The position numbers were made by a program, and so were the translations under genes. Positions 15,627-64,000 of a DNA stretch of 64,000 bases are shown here, piece after piece. Origin of the DNA: Candidatus Acidiferrales bacterium (GTDB lineage: Bacteria > Acidobacteriota > Terriglobia > Acidiferrales > UBA7541); contig DASYYH010000011.1 in assembly GCA_035934015.1 (NCBI GenBank), positions 1 through 64,000 of the forward strand. Direction: 5' to 3'. The first letter of the stretch is position 1. The number at the start of each line of letters is the position of its first letter. Below the pieces are notes generated by a model. The model did not search any database and had not been told where the DNA came from. It saw only the letters and a list, made by a program, of their open reading frames with translations.

Positions 15627-16523
15627 TTGCGAAAATTTTCTGTATATGCCACTGCACTGCTTTTCGGGTGCATCATCTTTCTTCCGGCGAGCTGCTTCGC
15701 GCAATCGTCGATTGCCGCCAGCGCAACGATTACATCGCTCAACGCGAATGAATCTTCGTCGCTTGTTCCGGCATCGCCACTCGTTGCCGATGATTACAGC
15801 TTCTATTCCCTTGCGGCTCCGTCGCTGGCTCTGACGCCTTCGGCGCCAGCTCCGCCGCCCGGTGTGCCGATTCTTTCGCGCATCGGCATCGGCGTAAAAG
15901 TTTCGACGCTCGGCGCGGGCATCGAAGCCGCCTACAAAATTATTCCGCATCTCAATATTCGCGGCGGCTTCAACGATTTCAGCTACAGCCGCACGTTCAA
16001 CACCAATGGCTTCGCCGCCGACGCCAGCCTGCAGTTGCGTTCCGTGGAAGGCCATGTGGATTACTTCCTCATCGGCCCGCTGCACATCAGCGGTGGCGCG
16101 CTTTTCTACAACGACAACAAGGCCACGGGTAACCTCACAGTGCCCGGCGGCAGTAGTTTCAAGCTCAACAGCACGACCTATTACAGCGATCCTACGAATC
16201 CGATTACCGGCAATGCAACGCTCGGCTTGAATAAGGCCGCGCCGACAGCAACGCTGGGCCTCGGCAACCTCGTCGGGAAGCATCGCGTCAGCGTCAATTT
16301 CGAAGTGGGCGCGGCGTTCCAGGGCTCGCCATCGATCGGCATGAACCTCGCGGGAACGGCTTGCACTTCGTATCCGTGCGTCGCCGGCGTAAATACGATT
16401 AATGCCGCGACGGACCCGGGATTGCAGTCCAACCTGGCGGCGCAGCGGAAGAAGTACAGCAACGACCTGACCGCGTTCAAGTTTTACCCGATCATTTCGC
16501 TCGGCTTCAGCTTCCGGCTCTAG
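15627..16523 (+). CDS. Predicted outer-membrane beta-barrel protein
   Basis: A 298-residue exported protein. The TTG start has GGAG about 7 nt upstream, then a signal peptide (ALLFGCIIFLPASCFA, cleavage near QSS) and a low-complexity Ala/Ser/Pro segment to about residue 90. After that come amphipathic strands typical of small barrels: ISRIGIGVKVSTLGAGIEAAYK, LNIRGGFNDFSYSR, VDYFLIGPLHISGGALFY and the closing strand IISLGFSFRL, whose terminal aromatic-x-hydrophobic pattern is the usual barrel-assembly signal. No substrate can be inferred. A strong terminator follows 20 nt after the stop. Confidence 0.65.
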   Translation: MRKFSVYATALLFGCIIFLPASCFAQSSIAASATITSLNANESSSLVPASPLVADDYSFYSLAAPSLALTPSAPAPPPGVPILSRIGIGVKVSTLGAGIEAAYKIIPHLNIRGGFNDFSYSRTFNTNGFAADASLQLRSVEGHVDYFLIGPLHISGGALFYNDNKATGNLTVPGGSSFKLNSTTYYSDPTNPITGNATLGLNKAAPTATLGLGNLVGKHRVSVNFEVGAAFQGSPSIGMNLAGTACTSYPCVAGVNTINAATDPGLQSNLAAQRKKYSNDLTAFKFYPIISLGFSFRL

Positions 16524-16586: not shown

Positions 16587-16851
16587 AGCTCCGTTCAATG
16601 CCAAAGCCAAGACGCTAACCCCGCGATAAATTAAATATCATGACGGAAGAGGAGTTCCAGCGTCCGCGAACAGGTGAGATCATGAGCGTTGATACCGCTC
16701 GACCAGAAAAAGCTCCCAGTTCCATCCGTCGGCCTGCACAAACTGCGCGACTCCACAAATGGCCAAGCCCACGAACGCAGAGAAGGGCTCGGAAGCGCAA
16801 ACCACTCACTCCGTTCGAATAATTAGGCTGTCATTTTGTTGCCGAATTCTC

Positions 16852-16880
16852 TTGACGGATAGTTAATCTTATGGTAAGCT
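16852..16880 (+). promoter_or_regulatory. Promoter of a candidate small RNA
   Basis: TTGACG (16852-16857) and TAAGCT (16875-16880) are separated by exactly 17 nt. Predicted transcription start is about 16887. What follows is not coding but a series of hairpins ending in a terminator, so the promoter probably drives a short structured RNA. Confidence 0.6.
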
Positions 16881-16886
16881 GTGGGT

Positions 16887-17010
16887 GTATAGGTTGATAT
16901 CTGTCGGCTGGGCCGTTTGCTCCGGATTCCCCGGACGCATAAGCTCTCCCGCAAACTGATTGATGAGTTGTGTCAATCGTCTCGGTAAGGTGCCGAGGCG
17001 ATTTTTTTTT
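16887..17010 (+). ncRNA. Candidate structured small RNA or attenuator leader
   Basis: About 124 nt between a 17-nt-spaced promoter and an intrinsic terminator. Three nested or serial stems are visible: GTTTGC (16915) closes with GCAAAC (16956), enclosing TCCGG-attcc-CCGGA. Next, GATTGA (16958) pairs with TCAATC (16978). Last is the terminator stem CGTCTCGG/CCGAGGCG. No open frame or ribosome binding site lies within. Only 24 nt separate its T-run from the next ATG, so it could be a free sRNA or a premature-termination leader of that gene. It matches no riboswitch class I know. Confidence 0.55.
16978..17010 (+). terminator. Intrinsic terminator of the candidate small RNA
   Basis: Stem CGTCTCGG/CCGAGGCG (8 bp, one G-T pair), loop taaggtg, then ATTTTTTTTT. 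It lies just upstream of the ribosome binding site of the following gene, so read-through control is possible. Confidence 0.85.
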
Positions 17011-17034
17011 CGAAATTGCCCAAGGAGGGCTGCC

Positions 17035-17775
17035 ATGCCAAAGTCTTCACGCTTTACCCGGCGCTCAATTCGCCGCCAGCCACGCCTCGGGAGAAGCAAC
17101 GCGAACACCAAAGTTCTCGAAGAGGCCATCGCCCTGCGCGATAAAGTCTTCAAGCTGCTTCCCGCCGAATCCGCCGCTACCCGTCCCGCACACTCGATCC
17201 AGAACGCCGCTCCTCCCATGCGTCGCAAACCTTCTCGCTCCGATCTCCACAACAACTCCAATTTCCGGCGTCATTCCCGCAAATGCGCCATCTGTCACCA
17301 TCCGCAGCGCGAAGACATTGAAGAGGAATTCCTCCAATGGCATCCGCCGGCGAACATCCAGCAGGATTACGACCTGCCCAGTCGCCCGGCGATTTACCGT
17401 CACGCCCAGGCCACTGGCCTCCGCAGACGTCGCCGCCGTAATCTCCGCGGTCTTGCCGAACGCATTTTGGAAAACGCCGACGTCATCAGCCCCTCCGGCG
17501 AAACGATCCTTCGCGCCATGCGCATTTATGCGCACATCACCGAAGATGGCGAATGGATCGAACCCGCCAAGCGCACCGTTGTCCATCACATTCATTCCTT
17601 CGCGCCTCGTACCGATTCAGTGGAAAACACTTCGCGCGACCTTCCTCTTGCACCGTCAGAGCCGTCGCTCTCTCAGCTCGCCGAGCCGGGGCCTCCAGCG
17701 GCTTCTCCGGACCCTTCTTCTGCTGAAATTCTAATCGGGACACTAGCGCCAACTGACGAGCCCGCAAATGATTGA
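17035..17775 (+). CDS. Putative zinc-binding, helix-turn-helix-like protein
   Basis: A 246-residue basic protein with an AAGGAGGG ribosome binding site. A basic N-terminal tail (FTRRSIRRQPRLGRSN) is followed by a central module, CAICHHPQREDIEEEFLQW at about residues 83-101, then YDLPSRPAIYRHAQATGL. The Cys-x2-Cys-x-HP-x-R start and the closing RHAQATG resemble zinc-ribbon plus helix-turn-helix modules of small phage-like and regulatory DNA-binding proteins. The C-terminus is Pro/Ser-rich and ends within a 15-bp repeat. Its leader holds a complete terminator, so expression may be attenuated. No named family can be given. Confidence 0.6.
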   Translation: MPKSSRFTRRSIRRQPRLGRSNANTKVLEEAIALRDKVFKLLPAESAATRPAHSIQNAAPPMRRKPSRSDLHNNSNFRRHSRKCAICHHPQREDIEEEFLQWHPPANIQQDYDLPSRPAIYRHAQATGLRRRRRRNLRGLAERILENADVISPSGETILRAMRIYAHITEDGEWIEPAKRTVVHHIHSFAPRTDSVENTSRDLPLAPSEPSLSQLAEPGPPAASPDPSSAEILIGTLAPTDEPAND

Positions 17776-17810
17776 AAACACTCACCGCAGGCCGTTTCTA
17801 ATCGGGACAC
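17729..17810. repeat. Pair of 15-bp direct repeats (TTCTAATCGGGACAC)
   Basis: The identical sequence TTCTAATCGGGACAC occurs at 17729-17743 and 17796-17810, 67 nt apart. The first copy lies inside the end of the zinc-binding gene, the second just after it. The reverse complement resembles the TGTCCCGATTA-type terminal sequence of some insertion sequences. No transposase remnant is present. Confidence 0.55.
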
Positions 17811-63593: not shown

Positions 63594-63921
63594 GCCATAC
63601 ACTTTCTCTCGCAGCATTCTCTGTTCCCGGGCAACTTTCCTGAGAGCGCTGCCCCGCTCTTGAATATGCATTCGCAGGGGCTTGCTCGCCGCCTGCTCGC
63701 CGTGGCGAGTGCCGGGCGAAGTCGAAGGGTCACTCGCGGACCGCTTTGAATTTGCATTCGTAGGGGCGGGGCTTGCCCCGCCCGGGCGACTCTCCGAGTC
63801 GCCTTGTTTCCGTGCGTCGCGTTTCGTTTTTTCTCGCCACTTGCTCGCCGCGCCGCAGCCTGCTCGCCTGGGCGAGCCTGTCCACCGCAGGCAGGAATCT
63901 GCTTTCCCCGTCCGTTTTCTC
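63594..63921. repeat. Repeat-rich spacer without gene
   Basis: About 330 nt built of dispersed palindromes: TTGCTCGCC and GTGGCGAG elements near 63680 and 63850, CCGGGCGAAGTCGAAGGGTC near 63712, a GTAGGGGCGGGGCTTGCCCC palindrome near 63760, and GGCGACTCTCCGAGTCGCC. The open frames on both strands here are repeat-derived. Similar pieces sit inside glnE. Confidence 0.55.
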
Positions 63922-63950
63922 TTGACTTTCTGTTTATAAAATGGTACACA
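63922..63950 (+). promoter_or_regulatory. Putative promoter at the right edge
   Basis: TTGACT (63922-63927), a 17-nt AT-rich spacer and TACACA (63945-63950). The predicted transcript starts about 63957. It begins with CGGGC-gtttt-GCCCG (63962-63976), then GGCCACC-TTCG-GGTGGCC (63981-63998), a UUCG-capped stem, before the window ends. It may drive a structured RNA or a gene that is cut off. Confidence 0.4.
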
Positions 63951-64000
63951 GGATAATGACTCGGGCGTTTTGCCCGGCCAGGCCACCTTCGGGTGGCCGT

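Follow-up and report, generated by a model that had tools for sequence, protein, structure and literature searches.

The MITE families QMITE1 and QMITE2 of Coxiella burnetii are a source of small RNAs (sRNAs) (PMC5896051) and are the nearest described kind of element to the one reported here. The likeness lies in some 50 short, often intergenic copies per genome, in a sigma-70 promoter within the repeat or at its edge, and in sRNAs arising from the copies (PMC5896051). The Correia repeats of Neisseria are likewise dispersed between genes and can carry promoters and be transcribed (PMC5896051), features in which Correia and REP-type repeats resemble our element. A further point of comparison comes from phages: what gene-bearing copies encode is related to a protein of phage DNA packaging and is not a transposase, which raises a testable question of how the repeat spreads. 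Phages of the pac type, P22 for example, have their recognition site within the gene for the terminase small subunit (TerS) or close to it. In a gene transfer agent, the C-terminus of TerS binds TerL (PMC6854486).

Here we analyzed a window, meaning the whole 64-kb stretch of DNA under study, on a contig of the genome of an uncultured soil bacterium, a Candidatus Acidiferrales (3.37 Mb, 98.6% complete), and compared it with congeners that are metagenome-assembled genomes. An earlier note had described a self-contained unit between two genes at this locus, a description that our comparison supports. Judged from sequence, the stretch is likely to be the transcribed left end of an unnamed dispersed repeat, comprising a promoter, a short RNA and a terminator, whose product would be a free small RNA in gene-less copies, while gene-bearing copies would express their gene by read-through. 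The element is about 260 bp long without the gene and about 1 kb with it; it is known here from Acidobacteria only, and a search of the literature found no description of this repeat. New regulatory RNAs seldom come from sRNA genes that multiply inside a dispersed repeat, and this source has been little tested; a single genus in which one promoter-RNA-terminator module has diverged into dozens of copies provides a natural series for RNA evolution.

Features of the window

16851-16881, + strand: promoter forming the element's left edge, with TTGACG, a conserved 17-nt spacer (GTTAATCTTATGG) and TAAGCT (matrix score 25.6 bits)
16886-17011, + strand: predicted short RNA of about 120-126 nt, start placed from the -10 box and end from the T-run (fold and terminator analysis)
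16921-16935, + strand: hairpin TCCGG/CCGGA, the sole internal one named in the earlier note that has a high pairing probability (0.99-1.0); not conserved in L003/L004
16975-17011, + strand: intrinsic terminator, 13-bp stem (16975-17003) and T9; lower stem AATCGTC/GACGATT kept in L003 and L004
17022-17029, + strand: ribosome binding site AAGGAGGG of the downstream gene (direct reading)
17035-17775, + strand: gene for a C-x2-C zinc/helix-turn-helix (zinc/HTH) protein of 246 aa that resembles a terminase small subunit; four copies in the genome, with viral relatives L038 and L039 directly upstream of large terminase
17729-17743, + strand: repeat R1, TTCTAATCGGGACAC, inside the gene end (sequence pattern)
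17744-17795, + strand: core between the repeats, here CAAATGATTGAAAACACTCACC, consensus GTAACTCAYTGAAAACAAA (sequence pattern)
17796-17810, + strand: repeat R2, TTCTAATCGGGACAC, past the stop codon (pattern expected 0.00 times in shuffled windows)
63921-64000, + strand: second, gene-less copy, locus L145, with promoter, hairpin CGGGCGTTTTGCCCG (CGGGCG/TGCCCG) and terminator GGCCACCTTCGGGTGGCC, cut by the window end; its 3' element lies at contig 64032-64108

We count the window copy as a member of the element family on its promoter, position, terminator, gene and 3' element.

Promoter and left edge

The promoter with a 17-nt spacer lies where the earlier note had placed it, with TTGACG at 16852-16857 and TAAGCT at 16875-16880. 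A generic sigma-70 scan missed it because its hexamers are weak. We scored the window with a matrix trained on 40 promoters of related elements, at whose collection the TTGA and GGTA/GATA positions had been required. The site at 16852 reached 25.6 bits; the sole higher site, at 63922 (41 bits), is itself in the training set, and the next one scored 5.7 bits. When the collection positions were excluded (24 others were scored) and the 63922 copy was removed from the training, 63922 ranked first and 16852 ranked 14th of about 128,000. Similarity among eight gene-less copies begins sharply at CTTGAC, which identifies the promoter as the left edge of the element, and the left flanks of these copies are unrelated. 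The promoter pattern is present in all five genomes of the genus and in none of 36 other genomes. The spacer between the hexamers is conserved but only weakly dyadic (10 of 18 positions when judged by eye), so that autoregulation through an operator located there is no more than an inference.

The 3' element and its copies

The other end of the element is marked by a direct repeat of TTCTAATCGGGACAC at the end of the gene, in two copies 67 nt apart. Other genes of the family have the same layout with a spacing of 66-69 nt, and the suffix of the repeat varies among loci and is usually identical in both copies of one locus. The strict 3' pattern occurs once in the window, where 0.00 occurrences are expected. 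Genome-wide, TCTAATCG-N45..72-TCTAATCG was matched 47 times here and 18-49 times in each of four congeners, whereas the reversed controls gave 0 matches. Within the taxonomic family, the 3' pattern occurs in 24 of 89 genomes and 4 of 13 genera. Inverted copies also lie within the 3' element, whose layout is that of a direct repeat with one inverted half around a core rich in A. L142 (1568-1615), L106 and L116 have a further inverted half after R2 (in L142 TTCTAATCGCTGA / TCAGCGATTAGAA, 13 of 13), so the 3' element may hold two palindromic sites. We rejected carriage of the element by present-day viruses: at least 120 viral stretches match the loose pattern and, among the 80 matches listed, one passes the loose core filter, without resemblance to the element.

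From the five genomes of the genus we collected 112 distinct 3' elements. The promoter TTGACAATnnGTTAACTnTATGGTAnACA lies upstream of 42, with identical spacing in 40, and a recognizable terminator ends 41 of the 42 promoter-bearing stretches (one of the 41, L197, is of a different leader type, and its terminator call is doubtful). The promoter-bearing copies usually have a 55-95-nt RNA together with the terminator. The remaining 70 of the 112 have no recognized promoter, which means that the element can exist without the RNA. In this genome, gene-bearing L031 and gene-less L148 align at both ends, with 85% identity in the RNA region (74 nt) and 93% in the 3' element (122 nt), and differ by the gene, which L148 lacks. 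At the level of sequence, the copies have a common architecture, a conserved promoter, a covarying terminator and gene-less derivatives, in the numbers given.

Two further arrangements were observed among the copies. A second leader type precedes the 3' elements of L109, L122, L143, L154 and L197, with a TTGAYA-type promoter, a conserved CTCTCCGCCTAGCCCTCCCGAGCCGC-like stretch and no clear terminator; several of these copies also have a ATGGTTAG-like stretch. In L112, L178, L180, L374, L375 and L383, the RNA terminator and R1 are separated by some 40 to 130 nt of filler that resembles a minisatellite (GCGCCGTAGCCG...GGCGAAGGAG).

Structure of the RNA

The three clear stems of the earlier note are not supported for the window RNA. 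Of the four helices that it named, two are missing from the predicted fold: GTTTGC/GCAAAC has a pairing probability of 0.00, and GATTGA/TCAATC has one of about 0.02 and, as named, shares base 16978 with the terminator stem. The TCCGG/CCGGA stem is predicted at the high probability given above. The structure as first drawn lies 19 kcal/mol above the minimum. In L003 and L004, which carry the closest relatives of the gene, the terminator base CAATCGTC...GACGATT (GACGATTTTTTTT) is kept and the remainder of the stems, the internal ones included, is not. The RNA body before the terminator aligns neither with other copies nor with these relatives, and a DNA-level search of 60 relatives with the window RNA matched only itself, so the body is not conserved. 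The earlier note's view that the RNA has no reading frame proved sound insofar as there is no gene there; the frame of the downstream gene is open back through the terminator, without a ribosome binding site.

The whole window RNA has a minimum free energy of -44.8 kcal/mol (z = -3.05). Without the terminator its z-score is -0.37, no better than shuffled sequence; nearly all of its fold stability comes from the terminator. Perfect 6-bp inverted repeats in the window RNA are at chance level (P 0.32). The terminator with its T9 run, by comparison, was found as described, with 13 pairs; shuffled regions contained 0.6 terminator-like sites on average. Compensatory changes, which the earlier note had proposed as a check, are present in this stem across the gene-less copies: in 24 copies, 14 cells are changed on both sides versus 4.4 in shuffles, and 0 of 500 shuffles reached as high a count. 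A 5' hairpin, whose stem sequences differ widely, has a mean z of -1.3 over 41 copies (P 2e-6 by t-test), the copies being related and their z-scores not independent. In seven close copies all 9 pairs of this hairpin are kept while 5 pairs vary, one of them on both sides, a result that does not exceed the shuffle control with so few copies.

As expected of a small-RNA gene, the non-coding stretch is flanked by its own promoter and an intrinsic terminator. These comparisons support a functional RNA in the family, which would be made and stable, the window's own copy being structured no more than by chance before its terminator. A competing explanation holds that the RNA has no function, and that promoter and terminator are the left end of a selfish repeat that is passively copied and decaying. 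This would account for bodies that differ strongly among copies and for a 5' part of the window RNA that is no more structured than chance. Random decay, however, would not be expected to spare the -35 box, the spacer, the -10 box, the spacing, the T-run and, through compensatory change, the terminator pairing, all of which diverged copies keep, and we regard this explanation as somewhat unlikely.

Terminator and proposed read-through

In the reading that we prefer, the conserved promoter at the extreme left edge would drive a short RNA that mostly ends at the intrinsic terminator. In most copies only the 76-bp TTCTAATCG element follows the terminator, and the product would be a free small RNA. 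In a few copies, including that of the window, the TerS-like gene lies between the terminator and the 3' element and would be expressed by read-through, such that one terminator would double as an attenuator in gene-bearing copies. The next gene does begin 24 nt past the T-run, at ATG 17035, with its own ribosome binding site. As this interval leaves no room for a second promoter, the gene's mRNA would come from read-through of the terminator. Both possibilities raised originally, a free small RNA and a terminating leader, thus find support, the first since promoter-RNA-terminator units without a gene behind them occur by the dozen in the genus, and the second in the 24-nt gap.

The same gap is the starting point for a narrower explanation, in which the stretch is only a regulatory leader, a cis-acting attenuator of the downstream gene whose RNA has no life of its own. 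L003 and L004, moreover, keep the same terminator before the same gene. Nevertheless, gene-less promoter-RNA-terminator units far outnumber gene-bearing ones, a clear leader terminator is missing in about half of the gene-bearing copies of the genus, and no conserved ligand-binding or antiterminator fold is present. Our test for a riboswitch or attenuator found no conserved sensor fold, a leader body that differs in L003/L004 and a proposed alternative pair with a probability of 0.02. We therefore consider a leader-only role unlikely.

That the RNA is a drifted relative of a known riboswitch or other Rfam RNA has no point in its favor and is highly improbable: in the covariance search of the window no family reached its gathering score, the best sub-threshold match being the Burkholderia sRNA ncS54, which scored 19.1 bits where 43 are required, and this match is mostly to its terminator. 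The original remark that the RNA fits no known riboswitch thus holds for Rfam, and a tRNA search gave no match. A small RNA that sequesters CsrA/RsmA through GGA in loop and linker is rejected as far as the genus genomes are complete (98.6% for the window's own), since the GGA seen in many hairpins and linkers is not enriched over shuffles (P 0.25) and no CsrA gene occurs in any of the five genus genomes, in a search whose control detects CsrA in known genomes.

The downstream gene

The protein encoded downstream has the motif RHxRKCxICxHPxRxxIExxFxxW...YRHAxAxGL...RRxNLR. Its gene is present four times in this genome, and relatives have as many as nine copies; the zinc/HTH family is patchily distributed in the taxonomic family, with 27 of 89 genomes carrying it, and is rarely met in the phylum, where 10 of 297 genomes gave a match, mostly a weak one. 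Searches of Pfam and NCBIfam returned nothing above cut-off, there was no significant transposase match, and the match to the PHROG terminase small subunit is weak (best E 0.006, 3 of 22 members). Fold searches of the zinc/HTH domain found no significant relative, and fold comparison neither supports nor excludes a TerS origin.

On the viral contigs L038 and L039 a relative of the gene lies directly before the large terminase gene, from which its product looks like a terminase small subunit, and the cellular relative L013 is followed by an open frame in which a likeness to the N-terminus of the L038 large terminase can be seen by eye. Phage-type members have the C-terminal motif LNELFERM..EELE.YA....LP.WF (LPxWF), which the chromosomal multicopy members lack. 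The window copy stands alone on the chromosome and not directly upstream of a large terminase gene. With the window copy alone and the viral relatives before large terminase, we call the protein TerS-like and not a terminase subunit, and we infer a TerS origin. The likeness to phage TerS thus comprises this position of two viral relatives and a small, helical, DNA-binding-like protein, and the repeats at the end of the gene recall the P22 site in or near the TerS gene. The chromosomal copies differ from phage TerS in being multicopy and stand-alone, in lacking the phage-type C-terminal motif and in showing no significant fold similarity. The protein probably recognizes and binds the TTCTAATCG sites, because these lie in the end of its own gene. 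In a sister species (genome G003; L003 and L100), a family gene likewise adjoins the outer-membrane protein gene that the window has at 15627-16523, but in the opposite orientation.

Possible mobility and relation to known repeats

The element presumably is, or was, mobile. One locus has it in two species and lacks it in three, and our searches found neither precise empty sites nor target duplications. As in MITEs, the element is short and non-coding and has many dispersed copies (47 3' elements in this genome, and gene-less units of about 260 bp). No terminal inverted repeats join both ends in L153 or L142, and no copy points to an autonomous partner encoding a transposase, the gene-bearing copies encoding the zinc/HTH protein instead. 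Lacking terminal inverted repeats and a precise empty site, the element is not filed here as a MITE. These features also separate it from the Coxiella QMITEs, as neither terminal inverted repeats nor target duplications were found and its gene-bearing copies encode a TerS-like protein and no transposase; in addition, its promoter, RNA and terminator form one conserved module, and its sequence and phylum are unrelated. From Correia and REP-type repeats it differs in its own sequence and in its layout of a direct repeat with an inverted half, an A-rich core and no terminal inverted repeats, and no RAYT or IS partner was seen for it.

A descendant of a terminase small subunit, combined with its own recognition sites (the TTCTAATCG repeats) and a small RNA, could constitute a new type of element, selfish or domesticated, whose spread needs no recognized transposase and might instead depend on chromosomal DNA being marked for packaging or on the hijacked machinery of a helper, with the RNA as a regulator; we offer this as a tentative and rather doubtful proposal. 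In genus g12 (L014-L016, L024, L025, L063, L064, L088-L092), a genome can have up to nine zinc/HTH copies. Several of them lack TTCTAATCG repeats and end in a different conserved C-terminal stretch, LPRTNAVTG; they may represent a parallel element.
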